Positions 12,353 through 29,891 of a stretch of 64,000 nucleotides of DNA are shown here, piece by piece. The translations under genes were made by a program, and so were the position numbers. The stretch's first letter is position 1; each line of letters opens with the position of its first letter. Under the pieces are notes generated by a model that was not told the DNA's origin, ran no database searches, and saw only the letters and a list, made by a program, of their open reading frames with translations. This DNA is from an uncultured Clostridia bacterium. GTDB taxonomy: Bacteria > Bacillota > Clostridia > Christensenellales > UBA1242. The stretch spans positions 1 to 64,000 of the forward strand of contig CANPYI010000003.1 of NCBI GenBank assembly GCA_947588355.1. Direction: 5' to 3'.

Positions 12353-13045
12353 TTATCTTGTAAAATATCTTTCCATTCTAAACTTGTTCCAAGGCGATTT
12401 GTCTTCTGGACAAGCCAAAAACATCAGTTTTTCTTTCGTTGTTGGATGAGTGAAGGACAACTTTCCTGCCCAAAGCCCCAATGCACCCGTGCGACCGGTC
12501 GCCTTGCCATATTTGACATCGCCGACAAGCGGAAATCCTATATTTGCAAGTTGCAGTCTGATTTGGTGACTTCGCCCTGTCAAAATTTTCACTTCAAGCA
12601 AACTTTCATTGCCATTATCTTCCAAAACTTTGTAAACAAGTTCGGCTTTTTTTGCTCCCTTTTCGCTCATAGGCACAATTTTGACAATGTTGTCCTTTTC
12701 GTCTTTCTTGACATAGTTTACAAGCGTTTGAGTTTTTATTTTCACAACACCTTGAGTTATTGCATAATAAGTTTTCTCAATTTCGTGCGTTTTAAACTGT
12801 TCGGAAAGACGTTTTGCTGACTTTGAATTGCGTGCAAACACCATAATTCCACCTGTAGGCCTGTCCAATCTGTGCACAAGTCCAACAAAAGCCTCGCCCG
12901 TTTTGTTATATTTTTGCTTTATATAATCTTTCACCAATGAAAGCATGTCTTCGTCACCGCTATCATCTGGTGCCGAAGGTACATTTTGAGGTTTCAGGAC
13001 AACAACAATTTGATTGTCCTCATAAAGCACAGTCAATTTTTCCAT
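12353..13045 (-). CDS. RluA/RluD family pseudouridine synthase
   Basis: LVHRLDRPTGGIMVFARNSKSAKRLSEQF and LLEVKILTGRSHQIRLQLANIGFPLVGD. Confidence 0.93.
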   Translation of the reverse strand: MEKLTVLYEDNQIVVVLKPQNVPSAPDDSGDEDMLSLVKDYIKQKYNKTGEAFVGLVHRLDRPTGGIMVFARNSKSAKRLSEQFKTHEIEKTYYAITQGVVKIKTQTLVNYVKKDEKDNIVKIVPMSEKGAKKAELVYKVLEDNGNESLLEVKILTGRSHQIRLQLANIGFPLVGDVKYGKATGRTGALGLWAGKLSFTHPTTKEKLMFLACPEDKSPWNKFRMERYFTR

Positions 13046-13875
13046 ATTTTCACTCCTGTTGCACCGCATGGCAAAACAAGGCCTTCGTTGGTCGGAAGTC
13101 CGATTTCATCTGCCTCAACATTGTCGGGTCCAAATACGCTTTTCAATATATTGGCAATTACAGTTGGCTGCAGTCCTGTGGTGTAAGAATTTATCAACAC
13201 AAAAAGAGGTTTTTCGGACAAAACACCTTTGCAGAGTTCCACAAAATCTGCCAGATTGTCCTCCAACTTCCACATTTCTCCACTTGGACCTCTTCCATAA
13301 CTTGGCGGGTCCATAATAATGGCATCATATTTGTTTTTTCGACGTATTTCTCTTTCAATAAACTTTGCGCAATCGTCCACAATAAAGCGTATGTTTGAGA
13401 TATTGTTCAGTTTGGCATTTTCCTTGGCTCTTTCAACCATGCCCTTGCTGGCATCAACATGTGTCACACATGCTCCAACGCTTGCAAGAGCAGCTGAAGC
13501 GCCACCCGTGTAGGCAAACAAGTTTAAAATTTTTATTTCACGATTTGAGTTTTTAACAAGTTGTTGCATAAGTTCCCAATTCACCGCTTGTTCAGGAAAA
13601 ATTCCGGTGTGCTTAAAGCCCATTGGCTTGACAATAAACTTAAGTTTTTTCCAATCAATAAGCCACTGCTCTGGAATTTGTTTGTTGTAGTGCCAAAGTC
13701 CGCCACCCTCTTTGCGCTCATAAAAGGCATCAACACCCCTTTTCAAATCCTTTTTTGCATGCCAAATGACTTGCGGATCAGGTCGAAGCAGTTTGACGCC
13801 TGCCCAATCTTCAAGTTTTTCTCCGTCACCGGTGGCAATAACGCGATAATCCTTCCAAGAATCTGCAATCCTCAT
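13033..13875 (-). CDS. Class I SAM-dependent methyltransferase (RlmI-like)
   Basis: ILNLFAYTGGASAALASVGACVTHVDASKGMVERAKENAKLN and IIMDPPSYGRGP motifs. Confidence 0.85.
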   Translation of the reverse strand: MRIADSWKDYRVIATGDGEKLEDWAGVKLLRPDPQVIWHAKKDLKRGVDAFYERKEGGGLWHYNKQIPEQWLIDWKKLKFIVKPMGFKHTGIFPEQAVNWELMQQLVKNSNREIKILNLFAYTGGASAALASVGACVTHVDASKGMVERAKENAKLNNISNIRFIVDDCAKFIEREIRRKNKYDAIIMDPPSYGRGPSGEMWKLEDNLADFVELCKGVLSEKPLFVLINSYTTGLQPTVIANILKSVFGPDNVEADEIGLPTNEGLVLPCGATGVKIWKN

Positions 13876-13890
13876 AATTTGCCCTCAAAA

Positions 13891-16800
13891 TCATTTTTTG
13901 ACTGTTTGCAATTTTGTGATAATAAAACTATCCCCAACTTCTATATTGCGTTCAATGTCAGGATTGTCTATTTTTTCAACTGCACGCACAATCAAAACTT
14001 CTTGTTTAATCTTGTCCATAAAGTTGTAAAGCATCGTGGCAAGTTGCTCGTCAGCCGTCTCAAAATATGCATAAAGTCGGTCATCAATCGCAAAGTCGGC
14101 GTCTTTACGCAAAACTTGAAGTCCGCGCACAAACTCGCGATACAAACCTTCCAACACAAGTTGTTCGTCAAGTGTGATATCAAGCACAACAGTGTTTCCG
14201 TTTTCGTGAGCAATAACAAAATCTGTCTTTGGCTTCTTTTCCAAAACAAACAACTCTCCGTCAAGGTCCTTAAATTCGCCAACAGACACTTTTCCTGCCT
14301 TGAAGCCTTCCACAACTTTTTTCATGTCTTGGTCATCTAAGTTTGCAAGTGCAATCTTAAGTTTTTGCACATCACCCTTAAGCACAGCGCCCGCTTTTTT
14401 AAAGTTGACAGTCAAAAATTCGTCATTAAATTTGGCATCGTCTGTCACTGCTTCCAAAGTTTTGACATTCAATTCATCTTTTATGATGTCAGCAAAATCT
14501 TTCAAAACATCAACAGTATTTTCTCCGCCCGCAACATAAAGTGTTCGCAGTGGCTGTTTTATTTTTATCTGATTTTCATTACGCAATCTTTGTGCTGTTG
14601 ACATAATGTCACGTGCAACTGCGGTCTTTTCAAGCACTCCCTCAAATTTCTGCTTGCAAATTGCAGTTGGATATCCCGAAAGCATTATCGCCTCGGCCTC
14701 GTTTGGCTCTATCTCGCGCACAAGATTTTGCCAAATATATTCTGTCACAAACGGAATGACCGGTGTCATCACGCGAATGATTGCTTTGATTGCATTATAC
14801 AAGCACCAATATGCTGTAAGTTGGTCTTCCTTGTCATCAGACTTCCAAAATCTTTTACGATTTGAACGGATATAGAAATTGGATATATCATCAACCAATT
14901 TTTCAAAATCTTTGACCACCAAGTATTGCTTGTCCTCTGCATAATTCACATCGCTGTCAGAAACAAACTTGTTTATGCTTGCCAAAAGCCATTTGTCCGA
15001 AATTGTGAGATTTTTTTCAGAAAGTTTAAAGTTGTCAAATCTAGGATTGTCAATCACAGCATAAGTGTTAAAGAATGTGTAAACATTCCAAAATGCCAAA
15101 ATTTTTCGCCTTGCCTCATCTGTCAGTCCAAAGCCAAAGCGCATGTCATACACAGGACTTGAAGAAGAAAACAAATATCTTATTGCATCGGCGCCAACTT
15201 TGTCTGCAACATGATCTGCTTCCAAAGTGTTTCCGCCGCTCTTGTGAAACTCGCCACCATTTTCATCACGAACATATTGATAGGTCACAATTTTTTTGTA
15301 TGGTGCTTTGCCGGTCAAAACAACACTCATAATAAGAAGTGAATAAAACCACAATTTTATTTGTTCAATCATCTCACAAACATAGTCGCTAGGAAAATTT
15401 TCCTCAAAAAACTTTTTGTCAGAGAAGTATTTTTTCGTCGAGAAAGGAGTTATGCCTGCATCTAGCCACACATCGCCGACTTCCGGCACTCTTGAAACAG
15501 TTGCACCGCAGTCACATTTTATTTTGATATCATCAATCCAAGGTCTGTGGATATTTGGCAACTTGTCCACAAGTGCAGGATCAACCGCTTTTTGTTTAAG
15601 TTCTTCCAAACTGCCGATCACATGCACCTTGCCACATTTTTCGCAGACGTAAAAAGGCAGTGGCAGCCCATAAAAACGGCTGCGAGAGATATTCCAGTCG
15701 CCCATATTGTTAAGCCAATCTTTCATACGTTTTTTTGCATAATCTGGCTTAAATTCGACTTCCTCAATCGCCTTGAGTGCAAGCGGACGAATTTCGTCCA
15801 TTTTGATAAACCATGCCGATATAAGTTTGTACACCAAATCTGTTTTGCAACGCCAACAGAAAGGATAGGAGTGTTTGTACTTGTGAGCATACAAAAGTTT
15901 TCCATCTTTTTTCAAACGCTCAACAACCAAATCAACAACATCTGTTGTTTTTTTTCCGGCAAGAAAGCCCGTGCTTTCCAGCATCACACCTTGCTCGTTG
16001 ATAGGACAGATTTCTGCAAGTCCAAGACTTTGTCCAAGTTCAAAATCTTCCGCACCACAGCCCGGAGCAATATGCACAACACAAGTGCCTTCAGCATTGT
16101 CAACCATATCCCAAGCCACAACCTTGTGAGCAAATTGTTGCTCAGAAAGTTCTGGAAAACAAGTCTCATATTCCAAGCCTACAAGGTCTTTTCCCTTGAA
16201 AGTTTCCAAAATAGGCAAATCCTTTTTAAGCACTTTCAATCTGTCTTTTCCAAGAACAATATTCTCGCCTTCAAAATTCACCTTAACATATTCAAAATCA
16301 GGATTAACGGCAAGAGCAACATTGGCAGAAAGTGTCCAAGGAGTTGTTGTCCATGCCACAATCTTAAAGTCTTTGTTTTTGACAGGAAATTTGGCAAAAA
16401 TTGCAGTATGCTCCACTTCATGATAAGATGATGACATCTCATGTTCTGACAGACTTGTCCCACAACGTGGACACCAAGCCATAGGACGATTTTTCTTGAC
16501 AATCCAGCCATGACTGTCACACTCTTTCAAAAAGTGCCAAATAGAAGTGATATTTTCGTCAGTGTTGGTATAGTATGAATTGTCCCAATCCATCCACTGC
16601 CCCATTCGAATAGATTGTTTTGTGATTTCATTGCCAAAATGTTCAACACGCTCCATACATTTGTTTGTAAATTTGTCAATGCCATAGTTGACTATCTCAG
16701 GCTTGCCATTAAGCCCAAGTTCCTTTTCAACATTTACTTCCACCCAAAGACCTTGTCCGTCAAAGCCGTTTTGATATTGACAATCACGGCCCTTAAGAGC

Positions 16801-17013
16801 GTTGTATCTTATTGTCAAATCTTTGAGAGTGCGTCCCCAAAAGTGATGCACGCCAAGTCTGTTGTTGGCAGTTGCCGGGCCGTCAAGAAACTTAAATCGT
16901 TCGTGCCCCTCGTTTTTTTTCATCAGTTTTTCAAAAGAATTATTTTCTTTCCAAAATTTTAAAATGCCTTTTTCCATTTCCACAAAATTTGGTACTGTAG
17001 GTTCTTTTTTCAT
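13891..17013 (-). CDS. ileS: Isoleucyl-tRNA synthetase, type-2-like, variant GVHH motif
   Basis: About 1040 aa; IleRS core (NGFDGQGLWVEVNVEKELG, WMDWDNSYYTNTDEN, WCPRCGTSLSEHEM); GVHHFWG in the HIGH position. Confidence 0.92.
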   Translation of the reverse strand: MKKEPTVPNFVEMEKGILKFWKENNSFEKLMKKNEGHERFKFLDGPATANNRLGVHHFWGRTLKDLTIRYNALKGRDCQYQNGFDGQGLWVEVNVEKELGLNGKPEIVNYGIDKFTNKCMERVEHFGNEITKQSIRMGQWMDWDNSYYTNTDENITSIWHFLKECDSHGWIVKKNRPMAWCPRCGTSLSEHEMSSSYHEVEHTAIFAKFPVKNKDFKIVAWTTTPWTLSANVALAVNPDFEYVKVNFEGENIVLGKDRLKVLKKDLPILETFKGKDLVGLEYETCFPELSEQQFAHKVVAWDMVDNAEGTCVVHIAPGCGAEDFELGQSLGLAEICPINEQGVMLESTGFLAGKKTTDVVDLVVERLKKDGKLLYAHKYKHSYPFCWRCKTDLVYKLISAWFIKMDEIRPLALKAIEEVEFKPDYAKKRMKDWLNNMGDWNISRSRFYGLPLPFYVCEKCGKVHVIGSLEELKQKAVDPALVDKLPNIHRPWIDDIKIKCDCGATVSRVPEVGDVWLDAGITPFSTKKYFSDKKFFEENFPSDYVCEMIEQIKLWFYSLLIMSVVLTGKAPYKKIVTYQYVRDENGGEFHKSGGNTLEADHVADKVGADAIRYLFSSSSPVYDMRFGFGLTDEARRKILAFWNVYTFFNTYAVIDNPRFDNFKLSEKNLTISDKWLLASINKFVSDSDVNYAEDKQYLVVKDFEKLVDDISNFYIRSNRKRFWKSDDKEDQLTAYWCLYNAIKAIIRVMTPVIPFVTEYIWQNLVREIEPNEAEAIMLSGYPTAICKQKFEGVLEKTAVARDIMSTAQRLRNENQIKIKQPLRTLYVAGGENTVDVLKDFADIIKDELNVKTLEAVTDDAKFNDEFLTVNFKKAGAVLKGDVQKLKIALANLDDQDMKKVVEGFKAGKVSVGEFKDLDGELFVLEKKPKTDFVIAHENGNTVVLDITLDEQLVLEGLYREFVRGLQVLRKDADFAIDDRLYAYFETADEQLATMLYNFMDKIKQEVLIVRAVEKIDNPDIERNIEVGDSFIITKLQTVKK

Positions 17014-17033
17014 ATTATCTCCTATTGCAATTT

Positions 17034-17792
17034 TCAATAATTTTCCAAAATCTTGTTCATTTTCATAACATCAGCTGCGGTCATAATTCCCAAAGGTTTT
17101 TCTCTTGCACCACCATTTTGCGTCACCAAGATTGCAAGCATCTTGGAATTTTTGTGAAACATATCAAGTGCTTGCTCCACAGTGATGTCTTTGTTTGCAA
17201 ATGCATAATAATCACTGTGTTCAATCTTTGAAAGCATGTCCTCAATCTTCACGGAATCCAAGAAACTTTCTGCTTTTCCGCCGGACAGCAGGTGTTTTCC
17301 AAAAGCGTCAATGATTTTTTGTCCGTTTGCAACGCCAATGATTTCATTTCCCTTAAACACGGGCAAGTTTGAATAGCCCGACGACGCAATTGTGCAAATC
17401 ACCTCCCGCATAGACATACTTGACTGCACTGCCAAAACATCTCGCCTTGCCACAACCTCCAAAGCACGCGGAGGAGTTGTCAAAAGTTTTTCAATCTTTT
17501 CAATTTTTTCCACAACATCGTCGTGAGGTTCGGCAATAATAAAATCATTATTGTCATGCACAATCGCATTTCTCAACCTTCCGTAGCCAATCAAATCGTC
17601 TTCATATTTTCGCACTGTATAGTTGAATGCAACTGCCTTTCGTACTGCTTCCGAAAATCCCATACTGCGATTAAAGTTGTATCTGGTTTTAAGTGCATAG
17701 TCAATATTGTTGAATGCCGACAAAAAGCGTGCAGCATTGCTTTTTGGCACGGTGTCAATAATTTGTTCTGAATTTTTGTCTTTCTTTCCCAT
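17034..17792 (-). CDS. CBS-domain protein with N-terminal HEPN-like region
   Basis: CBS-pair-like C-terminal half (SMSMREVICTIASSGYSNLPVFKGNEIIGV; EKPLGIMTAADVMKMN); GRLRNAIVHDN in the N-terminal half. Confidence 0.7.
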   Translation of the reverse strand: MGKKDKNSEQIIDTVPKSNAARFLSAFNNIDYALKTRYNFNRSMGFSEAVRKAVAFNYTVRKYEDDLIGYGRLRNAIVHDNNDFIIAEPHDDVVEKIEKIEKLLTTPPRALEVVARRDVLAVQSSMSMREVICTIASSGYSNLPVFKGNEIIGVANGQKIIDAFGKHLLSGGKAESFLDSVKIEDMLSKIEHSDYYAFANKDITVEQALDMFHKNSKMLAILVTQNGGAREKPLGIMTAADVMKMNKILENY

Positions 17793-17897
17793 TTTACCTC
17801 TCAATTGTAATCAAACTAATTATACATAAAAAGAAAGAAAAAGAAAAACAAAAAACGCACTAAAATAAAAAAATATTGTCAACAAAACAAACAAAAC

Positions 17898-18581
17898 TTA
17901 TTTTGCTGGAGAATAAGTAAGTGGCGAGTTTGCACCAAGATAAACCTGTGGAACTTTTCCACTGATAACACTTTCTGCAACAAGAACTTCTGTCACACTG
18001 TCAACGGTGGTGGAATAAGCCGGCAAAACCAAAGAAACACTTGCGTAAAGTTTTATATACAACGAATGTTCGGTGTTGTTGACGCCTGCACCTTCAAACT
18101 TGCTTTCAAAAACAGAAGTCATTGCACCGATAGGCATAAGTTTCAAACTAACCTTTGGCCCAATGCCCACCAAAAACGGCAAACCGGTGAAAGTCCCAAG
18201 TGCAACATCAACACCGTATTTGCCCATTTGGTCAAGATAAATTTGTGCAACCTGATAAAATTTGCGAGCCATAAGATTGAGTTTGACCGTATCCAAGGAA
18301 ATAAACACAACTTCGTTTTGCGAATTTGTTTCAATATGCACCAAGTCTTCATATCGAAATCCTTCTTCACCCAAAACATCACAAACTGCATCACTGACAG
18401 CAGAAGTTGAAAGTGAAAAAACTGTTGCCTTTGTCGCCTCAACTACAACAGGATTGACAACAAAAAACACATAGCAAACAACAAGTATCAGGCACATACA
18501 AAAAGAAAAAACAACAAGCCTGAATTTTCGCTTTTTCCTCTTTTCATATTTTTGCTGATACAAACTTACTCTGCATTTCAC
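17898..18581 (-). CDS. yunB: Sporulation protein YunB
   Basis: N-terminal TM; NSQNEVVFISLDTVKLNLMARKF, VALGTFTGLPFLVGIGPKV region. Confidence 0.85.
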   Translation of the reverse strand: MKCRVSLYQQKYEKRKKRKFRLVVFSFCMCLILVVCYVFFVVNPVVVEATKATVFSLSTSAVSDAVCDVLGEEGFRYEDLVHIETNSQNEVVFISLDTVKLNLMARKFYQVAQIYLDQMGKYGVDVALGTFTGLPFLVGIGPKVSLKLMPIGAMTSVFESKFEGAGVNNTEHSLYIKLYASVSLVLPAYSTTVDSVTEVLVAESVISGKVPQVYLGANSPLTYSPAK

Positions 18582-18652
18582 AAAATATGTATATGCTGTG
18601 ATGCGTCAAATTTTGACAAAATATTTAAGAGCGATAACTCGAAAATAAACAC

Positions 18653-18692
18653 AATATATGGTGTATTATGTATGCGTAATACACCATATATT
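18653..18692. terminator. 16-bp perfect inverted repeat 3' of the spoVA genes
   Basis: AATATATGGTGTATTA - 8 nt - TAATACACCATATATT, 12 nt past the spoVAE stop. Confidence 0.55.
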
Positions 18693-18704
18693 TGGCAGCC
18701 TAAA

Positions 18705-19073
18705 CTACTTTTTTGTGTGAGAATGGAATATAAGAGCAAACAAAAATGCAAAGCCTATCGCCGCTGCGATGCCACCGGCAGTGGCAGTCAGGCCGCCCGT
18801 GAATATCCCCAAAAAGCCATGAGTTTTCACCGCACCGATTGCACCTTTTGCAAGCGAGGCACCAAATCCAACAATAGGCACATTTATGCCCGCTTTGGCA
18901 AAATCTGAAATATAATCAAAAAGCCCAACTGCTTCCAGAAAGACGCCTATAAGCACAAAAGTGACAAGAATTCGTGCAGAGGTTATGTTTGTTGTGATTA
19001 TCAAAAGTTCACCAAGAGCACACACCAATCCGCCAACCAAAAACACCCACAAATAAGTCAAAAATATTTCCAT
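18705..19073 (-). CDS. spoVAE: Stage V sporulation protein AE
   Basis: Small multi-TM protein, position after spoVAD, GFGASLAKGAIGAVKTHGFLGIFTGGLTATAGGIAAAI. Confidence 0.92.
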   Translation of the reverse strand: MEIFLTYLWVFLVGGLVCALGELLIITTNITSARILVTFVLIGVFLEAVGLFDYISDFAKAGINVPIVGFGASLAKGAIGAVKTHGFLGIFTGGLTATAGGIAAAIGFAFLFALIFHSHTKK

Positions 19074-19083
19074 CTCTCCTCCT

Positions 19084-20100
19084 TTACTTTTCCACAACTA
19101 TTGCGTGACAGACGCAAGGAATGGTGTCACCCTGTTGTGTGGAAGTTGTCGACAAAAGTGCCCCTGTCGGCAAAAAAAGTACTTTTTTGTATTGCCCTTC
19201 ATTTATCTTTTGGATTATATAGGAATTAAACACTGTTGCACAACAACCCGCACCAGATGCACCACACAAGGTCTCTTGTTCACGCTTGAAATACATCTGT
19301 CCACAGTCACCATAATTTGTTCCAAGAGTTATGCCTTCGTCTTCCATGAGGTCAATCAAAATCTCACTTCCAAGTTTGCCCAAATCGCCGGTCACAATAA
19401 GGTCATAATCATCGGGTTTTGTGCGCGTGTTTCTGAAGTGCGACAGCATTGTATCACGTGCCGCTGGAGCCATGGCACCACCCATGTTGTTGACATCATT
19501 CACTCCCCAATCAACAACTTTCCCAAAAGTGACAGCGGTGATTTTTGGACCTTCACCTTCCAAGGAAACTACCGAAGCGCCCGCACCCGTCACAGTCCAC
19601 TGCGAAGTCGGGGGTCTTTGATTTCCAAGTTCAAGCGGAAATCTGTACTGCCTTTCAGCCGTAGAAAAATGCGAGCCTGTGCAACAAACCACATTCTGAT
19701 AAAATCCACCGTCAACAAGCACTGCACCAATCGCCAAACTTTCCGCCATAGTGGAACAAGCACCATACAGGCCTATAAAAGGAAACTGGAACGCTCTAGC
19801 AGCATATGAAGAACTTATTATTTGATTCAAAAGGTCGCCTGCAATCATCAAATCGATATCTTTGGGTTGCAAATGTGCATTTTGTATCACGCCCGTAACC
19901 GCACTTTCAAGCATTTTACGTTCTGCCTTTTCAAAAGTCTTCTCGCCGAAGTGGTCGTTTTTCATGACATAGTCGAAATAAGGGCCAAAATTTCCCTGCC
20001 CTTCCTTGGGCCCAACAATAGCATAAGAGCCGATTATTTTTGGTTGATTTTTCAGTTTTATAGTTTGTTTTATTTTGAATGTATTCTGTCTTTTTTGCAT
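19084..20100 (-). CDS. spoVAD: Stage V sporulation protein AD
   Basis: Thiolase-like; GLYGACSTMAESLAIGAVLVDGG, ASGAGCCATVFNSYI. Confidence 0.94.
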   Translation of the reverse strand: MQKRQNTFKIKQTIKLKNQPKIIGSYAIVGPKEGQGNFGPYFDYVMKNDHFGEKTFEKAERKMLESAVTGVIQNAHLQPKDIDLMIAGDLLNQIISSSYAARAFQFPFIGLYGACSTMAESLAIGAVLVDGGFYQNVVCCTGSHFSTAERQYRFPLELGNQRPPTSQWTVTGAGASVVSLEGEGPKITAVTFGKVVDWGVNDVNNMGGAMAPAARDTMLSHFRNTRTKPDDYDLIVTGDLGKLGSEILIDLMEDEGITLGTNYGDCGQMYFKREQETLCGASGAGCCATVFNSYIIQKINEGQYKKVLFLPTGALLSTTSTQQGDTIPCVCHAIVVEK

Positions 20101-20111
20101 ATTCTTTCCTC

Positions 20112-20567
20112 TTAAAACAAAGAAATTATCCAATAAATAAGCCCCACAACCATACTTGACGCTACGCCAAACACAATAACGGGACCTGCAATAGTAAACA
20201 TCTTTACACAAATGCCGTATATTATACCTTCACTCTTAAATTCTATCGACGGACTTGTGATGGAGTTTGAAAAACCTGTAATTGGAACAATTGAGCCACC
20301 CCCTGCAAACTTTCCTATTTGGTCATAAACGCCAATTCCGGTCAAAAAAGAAGCGATAAAAATAAGAGTTATCAGTGTCAATGACCAACCGGTCTGTTGC
20401 GAAATATTCGGAAAAATCAGCAGATAAATGTCGTTTATGCCTTGACCAATCAAACAAATCAGTCCACCCACCCAAAACGAATTAAACAGCGATGGCCAAG
20501 GCCTTGTTTTTGGTATTTTTGCTGAAACATATTTGTTGTACGCTTCGTTTCTTTTTTTATCTTCCAT
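20112..20567 (-). CDS. spoVAC: Stage V sporulation protein AC
   Basis: PWPSLFNSFWVGGLICLIGQGI, GTGIYDQIGKFAGGGSIVPITGFSNSITSPSIEFKSEG-type signature. Confidence 0.94.
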   Translation of the reverse strand: MEDKKRNEAYNKYVSAKIPKTRPWPSLFNSFWVGGLICLIGQGINDIYLLIFPNISQQTGWSLTLITLIFIASFLTGIGVYDQIGKFAGGGSIVPITGFSNSITSPSIEFKSEGIIYGICVKMFTIAGPVIVFGVASSMVVGLIYWIISLF

Positions 20568-20690
20568 GCTATACCTCTTAAAACCTAAACAATAAAATTT
20601 TGTCCAAAAAGAATGAAAATAATCAACAGCCGGCATGGTTTTGTATATTTTTATTCAAAAAGCAAAATATAAGAAAAATCGGAGGTTTTT

Positions 20691-27473: not shown

Positions 27474-29891
27474 TTATTCCAAAATAGGTTTTCCTATTTC
27501 TATTGAAAAACTTCCTTTTGCAAAGTTTATATTTCTTACAGAACAAACTGCTTTGATATCCGACTCGCAATCTTTCAAAAAATCCAGGTTTTGTGCAGTG
27601 ATTGTCATTTGATCAATCTCAGTTTTCATGCTCAATTTGTTTTCGCCCTTAAATGCTCTGACTTTTGACACAATATCAACCACCATATCGCCGTTTTGTA
27701 TGATATTTTGTTCATTTTCAACATCAATCTTTGAAAGTGTTGTCAAATGGATTGAAATCTCTTTTTCAAACTTTCGGAAATAATTTTGATAAATTTCCTC
27801 AGTGATATATGGCATTGTGATTGCAAACAATTTCAAAACGCCCAAAAGCACATTATAGCATGCCCATTGTGCCGAAGTTTTGGCTTCCTCGCCGTATATT
27901 TCTGGTTTGTAAAGGCGATTTTTGGCAATTTCGATATAGTTGTCACAGAAGTTCCAGAAAAACTTTTCTATCTCGCTTTTTGCGTAGCCCATTTCAACAT
28001 TTTCATATTGAGCACAAGTTTTTTCAAATGCTTCGTTAAATTTGTGCATGATGAATCTGTCCATAGGCAAAATTTTTGCTGGTTTTGTTGGAATATAGTC
28101 CTCCATAAAAGAGAGTACAAATTTGGAAGCGTTCCAAAGTTTGTTTAAAAGTTTGTAACCGTCTTTCAAGCCGTCGTCAGTAAGCATAACATCTCGCCCA
28201 TACGCCCCGATTGCGCACCAATACCTTATCACATCGGCACTGTACTGCTCTATCATCTCATTTGGACCAAGTTTGCTGTTTGAAAGATGTTTTGAAAGTT
28301 TAACGCCCTTATCCGCCATAACCCAACCATTGACAATCAATTTTTTCCAAGGCAGGCAGTTTTGATGATAATATGCTTTAATTATCGTTCTCAAACTCCA
28401 TGTAGTGATGATATCTCGCCCGCAAAAACGCATATCCATAGGCATACGCTTTGCACATTCTTTTTCATTTTCTGCCCAATCACAGTTTATTTGAGGTGTC
28501 ACCGAGGAAGTTGCCCAAGTGTCCATAATATCATTTTCTGGAACAAACTCATTTGAGCCACATTCACACTTTGTTTTTGGCATAGTTGAAAGAGGGTTTA
28601 CCGGCAAATCTTTTTCATCTGCAAAAATAGGTTTACCGCATTTTTTGCAGTACCAAACAGGAAACGGCACACCAAAATACCTTTGACGCGAAATGGACCA
28701 ATCTTGATTGAGATTGTTCACCCAAGCCATGTAACGCGCTTTCATATTTTCTGGATGCCATTCAACTTGATTTCCAAGTTCTGTCCATTTTTTTCTTAAT
28801 TCCTCTGTTGAAGTGCGAATAAACCACTGTTTTTTAGACAAGAACTCAATAGGCTCTTCGCAACGTTCATGCACTTTCACAGCATGCACGATAGGATCTT
28901 GCTTATAGATGTATCCTGCAGATTTGAGATCTTCAATAATTTGTTTGCGAGCCTCAATAATCTTCAGTCCGGCATATTTTCCGGCTATTTCGGTCATTCT
29001 GCCGCTGTCGTCTATTGCTGCTTTAAGTGGAAGTTTATATTCTCTCCACCATTCAACGTCAGTCTGGTCACCAAAAGTACAGCACATAACAATGCCTGTA
29101 CCTTTGTCAATGCCAACCTTACTGTCCGCAAGCACCGTGACCTCATTTTGCTCAAAAAGAGGCACTTTGACCTTTTTTCCAACAAGATGAGCATATCTTT
29201 TGTCTTCAGGATTGACAAATATTGCCACACAAGCAGGCAAAAATTCTGGTCTTGTCGTTGCAATAGGAATTGTGCCGGAGCCATCTGCCAAGCGAAAATT
29301 AAGATAGTTGAAAACACTTGCAAGTTCTTTGTCCTCAAGTTCCAATTCAGCAACACTTGTGTGACATTTGCAACACCATGGAGATGGCTTTTCCTCGCGA
29401 TATGCAATCCCCTTTTTTGCAAGTTCGATAAACGACTTTTGGCTGGTTTTTTGGCTGTGATTGTCAATAGTGTTGTATCCAAGCAAAACATCACAACTCA
29501 TTCCAGACCTCATGATAAGGTCACGATAACTTTGATTGTATTTTGCCACCAACTCCAAAGCAATTTTTGTAAATTCCTCTCTTGGAATAGTGTGAGCCTT
29601 TATTTTCTTTTCTTTTTCCACCAAAAGTTCGGTTGGAAGTCCATTGTTGTCAAATCCAAGTGGATAAAACAAATTTTTGCCAAGCATACGGTTGTAACGT
29701 GCATACATATCCGCTTGTGCAAAGCCAAAAATATGCCCCATATGAAGATGACCACTTACAGTTGGTGGTGGAGTGTCAATAGAAAAAGTTGGCTTGTTTG
29801 ATTTTTCGTCAAACTTGTAAACTTGATTTTCCTGCCAAAATTTTTCCCACTTTGGCTCTTTTTCTGCGAAATTATATTTATTATCTAACAT
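27474..29891 (-). CDS. valS: Valyl-tRNA synthetase, short form
   Basis: HLHMGH motif, KLSKHLSNS KMSKS-type loop, 805 aa, no C-terminal coiled-coil arm. Confidence 0.85.
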   Translation of the reverse strand: MLDNKYNFAEKEPKWEKFWQENQVYKFDEKSNKPTFSIDTPPPTVSGHLHMGHIFGFAQADMYARYNRMLGKNLFYPLGFDNNGLPTELLVEKEKKIKAHTIPREEFTKIALELVAKYNQSYRDLIMRSGMSCDVLLGYNTIDNHSQKTSQKSFIELAKKGIAYREEKPSPWCCKCHTSVAELELEDKELASVFNYLNFRLADGSGTIPIATTRPEFLPACVAIFVNPEDKRYAHLVGKKVKVPLFEQNEVTVLADSKVGIDKGTGIVMCCTFGDQTDVEWWREYKLPLKAAIDDSGRMTEIAGKYAGLKIIEARKQIIEDLKSAGYIYKQDPIVHAVKVHERCEEPIEFLSKKQWFIRTSTEELRKKWTELGNQVEWHPENMKARYMAWVNNLNQDWSISRQRYFGVPFPVWYCKKCGKPIFADEKDLPVNPLSTMPKTKCECGSNEFVPENDIMDTWATSSVTPQINCDWAENEKECAKRMPMDMRFCGRDIITTWSLRTIIKAYYHQNCLPWKKLIVNGWVMADKGVKLSKHLSNSKLGPNEMIEQYSADVIRYWCAIGAYGRDVMLTDDGLKDGYKLLNKLWNASKFVLSFMEDYIPTKPAKILPMDRFIMHKFNEAFEKTCAQYENVEMGYAKSEIEKFFWNFCDNYIEIAKNRLYKPEIYGEEAKTSAQWACYNVLLGVLKLFAITMPYITEEIYQNYFRKFEKEISIHLTTLSKIDVENEQNIIQNGDMVVDIVSKVRAFKGENKLSMKTEIDQMTITAQNLDFLKDCESDIKAVCSVRNINFAKGSFSIEIGKPILE

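Follow-up and report, generated by a model that had tools for sequence, protein, structure and literature searches.

The 64,000-nucleotide stretch of DNA analysed here (the window) encodes an isoleucyl-tRNA synthetase (IleRS) in which the class I signature HxGH is replaced by GVHH. We consider it probable (roughly 0.8) that this enzyme is the sole, housekeeping IleRS of its host, that it belongs to a clade with the swapped motif and should be resistant to mupirocin, and that ileS of this type has been replaced repeatedly at one chromosomal site. Since the swap and its effect have been published (PMC10485003), the swap in the window IleRS is not new, and the enzyme is a new example of swapped-motif enzymes already described. 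More notable than the motif itself is that, within the genus, the gene has repeatedly been exchanged at its locus with one for a canonical IleRS2. The features of the gene were as follows.

13891..17013, minus strand: ileS, isoleucine--tRNA ligase, 1040 aa (TIGR00392, PF00133, PF08264, PF19302, AlphaFold)
16843..16854, minus strand: GVHH replacing the class I HxGH signature (direct translation; gap-free alignment with HVGH of PmIleRS2 and TtIleRS)
16045..16074, minus strand: editing-site segment HIAPGCGAED (sequence; invariant in a 13-member clade alignment)
15238..15252, minus strand: EFHKS replacing the class I KMSKS signature (aligned to KMSKS of PmIleRS2, TtIleRS and HxGH relatives)
14542..14997, minus strand: anticodon-binding domain (PF08264, 89 bits)
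13930..14490, minus strand: C-terminal DUF5915 domain (PF19302, 99 bits)

The reading frame of ileS is open from a TTG at 17037, which overlaps the stop codon of the gene upstream, and an ATG at 17013 has AGGAG (17019-17023) five bases upstream of it. This ATG is the likely start and gives a protein of 1040 aa, the approximate length estimated in an earlier note on this DNA. The whole-length score against TIGR00392 was approximately 734.7 bits, above the curated cut-off of 621.4. Assignment of the enzyme to IleRS2, also made in the earlier note, was borne out by the C-terminal domain, the sequence scores and the fold. In HMMER comparisons the window IleRS was nearer to P. megaterium IleRS2 (PmIleRS2, 635 bits) than to PmIleRS1 (295 bits), and a Pfam search gave no match to the zinc-finger domain of the IleRS1 type. 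The AlphaFold model, generated with 33 sequences as input, was confident (mean pLDDT 91.7). Its best Foldseek matches were structures of PmIleRS2, with that of the GVHH mutant (8c8w) among them, and it covered PmIleRS2 along the full length with a TM of 0.88. HYPFE, an IleRS2 motif named in PMC4861432, was absent from the window IleRS, which has KKYFS at the position aligned to HYPFE of PmIleRS2, and was also missing from the consensus of an IleRS alignment made up mainly of the deep clade described below. HYPFE appears, from these alignments, to mark the major IleRS2 clade; the minor clade is still termed IleRS2 despite this point (PMC10485003).

The minus-strand codons GGC GTG CAT CAC (16843-16854) translate to GVHH in the context DGPATANNRLGVHHFWGRTLKDL, and HMMER paired these residues gap-free with HVGH of both PmIleRS2 and the T. 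thermophilus IleRS (TtIleRS). The replacement of HxGH by GVHH had been claimed before and was confirmed by these results, which also indicate that the HIGH motif is not located elsewhere in the protein. With Gly at position one and His at positions three and four, the enzyme has the G/AXHH pattern. All EFHKS-type ileS genes of the genus that were read (44 loci in 43 genomes) encode GVHH or GIHH; a chance or misaligned motif was ruled out by the gap-free alignment together with this conservation across the genus. Three genomes from two sister genera (L107, L120 and L125, in G829, G708 and G787, respectively) have KLHH at HIGH with KFSKS, a first position absent from those given in PMC10485003, being neither Gly, Ala nor His. 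A very divergent IleRS with HHGT and KLSKK is found in a sister genus (L127, G598).

The window IleRS also has an altered KMSKS signature, a feature absent from the earlier note. The region reads DENGGEFHKSGGN in the window IleRS and DENGQKMSKSKGN in PmIleRS2, and of the five KMSKS residues EFHKS retains just the Lys at position four and the Ser at position five. Elsewhere in the pocket, HGLP is changed to QGLW and DQTRGW to EQIKLW. These ATP-pocket changes, EFHKS included, are typical of the clade to which the enzyme belongs, and within the window's group the KMSKS variants were EFHKS, KFSKS, KLSKS, and KFSKT followed by a one-residue deletion. EFHKS could alter ATP or drug binding beyond what the published enzyme pairs predict.

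Because both class I signatures are altered, the window protein might be a degraded or moonlighting paralogue, with tRNA-Ile charged by another protein. We regard this as highly improbable. A profile search of the whole genome (928 kb, a draft estimated to be 95% complete) returned this gene as the single ileS over the TIGR00392 cut-off. No second ileS was found in that draft, and the other class I matches were the weaker ones to ValRS, at 27474-29891 of the window, and LeuRS, on contig 1. A search for a second ileS had been proposed together with a housekeeping role for the enzyme, and its outcome upholds that role. The paralogue explanation is also opposed by conservation of the type in at least 43 genomes of the genus, by the confident prediction of an IleRS fold and by the retained editing residues. 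The His and Asp of the editing site, separated by nine residues, are kept in the window IleRS and invariant across the 13-member clade alignment; we take this pair to be His333 and Asp342 of E. coli IleRS. Compared with other species of the genus, ileS had a dN of 0.10-0.22 and, where it could be estimated, a dS above 2, indicating strong purifying selection, which likewise argues against a paralogue in decay. In addition, the activity of GVHH enzymes has been demonstrated (PMC10485003). Relatives of the window bacterium include Clostridia/Bacillota MAGs, and, in a genome of less than 1 Mb, the window contains a gene for a YunB-family sporulation protein and SpoVAD- and SpoVAC-like genes, the latter two read by eye (17898-20636).

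A link between GXHH and mupirocin hyper-resistance, put forward in the earlier note, is present in the literature. Brkic et al. 2023 (PMC10485003) counted G/AXHH in 86 of 163 IleRS2 sequences and found it nowhere among IleRS1, and mutagenesis in the same study links the swap causally to hyper-resistance. The swapped motif raises the mupirocin Ki by 10^2-10^3 at a cost in kcat; reversion of ALHH in D. radiodurans IleRS2 lowered the Ki 823-fold, and the opposite change, from HVGH to GVHH, was made in the T. thermophilus and P. megaterium enzymes. The enzymes assayed were from Deinococcus, Thermus and Priestia, with that of S. griseus measured earlier, and all of these appear to lie outside the deep clade of the window IleRS. 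By analogy with these related enzymes, the third-position His of GVHH would stand in for the usual first His in the transition state and, through its side chain, would collide with mupirocin; strong resistance is therefore expected of the window IleRS and its host. Intrinsic mupirocin hyper-resistance of the host is thus likely, and well grounded in that analogy. We infer a catalytically competent, functional-looking enzyme, yet full activity is not to be assumed, since GVHH introduced into the tested enzymes lowered kcat about 4- to 10-fold (PMC10485003).

The position of the window IleRS among other IleRS2 enzymes was assessed with a motif survey of 80 named loci across phyla and with trees, which were quick searches rooted on one very distant IleRS1 as the outgroup. 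The window IleRS fell within a deep IleRS2 clade of 41 rows whose stem was starred (SH-aLRT 99). This clade contains the window's group and sequences from Chloroflexi, Marinimicrobia, Phycisphaerae, Cloacimonadota and several archaeal and candidate-phylum genomes. His was present at HIGH positions three and four in 40 of the 41 rows, the exception being L168 (AVHT). GxHH enzymes of the deep clade mostly have xMHKS, QGLW, and either GQFRNW or EQxRLW, and their KMSKS has usually lost its Lys at position one and its Ser at position three. GxHH enzymes of the major clade, from Caldisericum, Ignavibacteria, Acidobacteria, actinobacteria and some Bacilli, retain HGLP or nearly so, DQTRGW and KMSKS-like motifs (one KMHKS). 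GXHH has been assigned both to the common ancestor of a minor clade of IleRS2 and to a subclade of the major clade (PMC10485003). The window IleRS groups with GXHH enzymes of Chloroflexi and Planctomycetota, apart from the major IleRS2 clade, and its deep clade, as resolved in the present tree, seems to match the published minor one. What is new here is that loss of the canonical KMSKS is general in the deep GXHH clade. In two Actinomycetota MAGs the only ileS found encodes AVHT with EMHGS (L168:3001-6042) or GVHH with EMHYS (L154:3001-5991), so that, between them, these genes have other residues in place of the last His of HIGH (L168) and the second Lys of KMSKS (both).

The genus itself contains two very different types of ileS. 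Among its 112 genomes, which are drafts, approximately half carry the window type (70-87% identical) and half an HxGH IleRS2 (32-40% identical); none of the 112 was found to carry both. The types, GxHH/EFHKS and HxGH/KMSK[SH], are only approximately 34% identical to each other and occupy a single conserved locus in alternation, and the gene order CBS - ileS - methyltransferase - rluA - pepF is common to both. In the window the immediate neighbours were as follows.

17034..17804, minus strand: CBS-domain protein, conserved neighbour upstream of ileS in the genus (PF00571; synteny)
13033..13875, minus strand: SAM methyltransferase, conserved neighbour downstream of ileS in the genus (PF10672; synteny)

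Mapped onto a tree built from three genes of the flanks, the GxHH label requires 13 changes, and starred branches force at least 12 of these. A tree of rpoB, a gene unlinked to the locus, covered 90 genomes and likewise requires 13, of which at least 11 are forced. G470 and G474, with RpoB approximately 2% apart, carry different IleRS types at the same locus. Between sister loci of different type, similarity of the flanking DNA (approximately 73-81%) ended at or near the ends of ileS. The GxHH allele has also crossed clades within the genus: the ileS genes of two species (L231 and L276), which belong to one flank clade, group with another clade, and that of G013 likewise groups with a clade other than that of its flanks. 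In G001 (L232 / L018), ileS resembles that of a sister genus over its first 780 alignment columns (62-88% to L238) and the EFHKS type of its own genus over the last 200 (62-88% to L257). This gene is a chimera in which a GLHH/KLSKS type gives way to the genus EFHKS type near alignment column 800, so that ileS also recombines internally. At this one chromosomal site very different versions of ileS have displaced each other again and again, probably via recombination in the conserved flanks. ileS2 has been described as following the species phylogeny at short distances (PMC4861432), and ileS of this genus departs from that view. Sister species such as G470 and G474 would allow the cost and benefit of the swap to be tested on a near-constant genetic background.

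Several loci had further features. ileS of G013 is accompanied on both sides by approximately 2.6 kb of extra genes (L227 2250-4980 and 8440-11000), not seen in the locus of its nearest relative. They encode a 602-aa unknown protein, a peptidase S51 and a 400-aa membrane-like protein; Pfam gave no informative match for these genes besides peptidase S51. No ileS was found in G443, rated 99% complete, probably owing to an assembly gap. An open frame of 24,661 aa at ileS of G472 proved to be a run of N and was rejected as a gene.

Alternation of the two types could be driven by IleRS inhibitors, with the swapped allele favoured in their presence and the canonical, faster allele in their absence. 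The gain in Ki at a cost in kcat described above (PMC10485003) and the 11-12 or more forced switches within one genus are in keeping with such selection, and resistance as the driver of ileS2 transfer has been put forward as speculation by the authors of PMC4861432. However, the HxGH allele is also IleRS2-like and is therefore probably moderately resistant already. ValRS and LeuRS provided controls. ValRS proteins of the genus (window 27474-29891 and relatives) fell into identity classes of 77-85, 47-54 and 30-34%, and LeuRS proteins (e.g. L004:1009-3438) into classes of 67-83, 44-50 and 39-43%, unlike PepF, encoded in the neighbourhood of ileS, which diverged gradually. Deeply diverged types of both synthetases were seen to alternate among close species of the genus. 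With valS and leuS classes taken as identity bins, not from trees, the rpoB tree required at least 9 changes for valS and approximately 18 for leuS, compared with 14 for all ileS types. A purely IleRS-directed drug leaves the deeply diverged valS and leuS types unexplained, and we think it unlikely that inhibitors drive the alternation.

Several synthetases thus turn over in the genus and, as valS and leuS also occur in very different types, the turnover of ileS need not be mupirocin-driven; ileS-specific selection as a simple cause of switching was weakened by these controls. We give a somewhat better than even chance to the view that aminoacyl-tRNA synthetase genes of this genus are frequently replaced from other bacteria with little or no selective effect, the motif travelling with ileS and playing no special part in the switching. 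The valS and leuS changes set against the gradual divergence of PepF support this explanation, as does ileS type, which had no significant association with leuS or valS type. Against it, the survey comprised three synthetases, two of them classified by identity bins, and ileS alternates mainly between just two alleles. That two non-orthologous alleles of IleRS, a drug-excluding, slow one and a canonical, fast one, are maintained and swapped at one locus by homologous recombination under natural inhibitors we hold to be decidedly doubtful; if true, an essential enzyme would be naturally polymorphic because of a trade-off.

Among known systems, the window enzyme is IleRS2-related like MupA and MupB, the plasmid-borne mupirocin-resistance enzymes of staphylococci. 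It is only approximately 32% identical to MupA over 95%, and it scored 581-611 bits against NCBIfam MupA/MupB cut-offs of 1900 bits, far below them. Unlike those plasmid genes, the window ileS is the sole chromosomal ileS, and a MupA-like plasmid origin was rejected, the best plasmid matches being less than 35% identical. Canonical HxGH IleRS2 enzymes of the same order, with HxGH and KMSK(S/H), have the same role and, within the genus, the same locus, and are approximately 34-38% identical to the window IleRS. The swapped HIGH motif is shared with G/AXHH IleRS2 of S. griseus and D. radiodurans (ALHH), which we infer to belong to the major clade and whose mupirocin Ki values were measured in the mM range; major-clade GxHH enzymes, unlike the window IleRS, keep KMSKS-like motifs, HGLP and DQTRGW. 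Features in common with the minor-clade G/AXHH IleRS2 (PMC10485003) are the IleRS2 fold, the exchange of HIGH positions one and three, and membership of a deep clade that includes Chloroflexi and Planctomycetota. That clade has no member among the enzymes with a mupirocin Ki in PMC10485003, and the text of that paper does not comment on the KMSKS changes, which its Fig. 2b may show. Unlike other enzymes of the minor clade, the window branch has EFHKS and EQIKLW and occurs in small-genome relatives of Clostridia.
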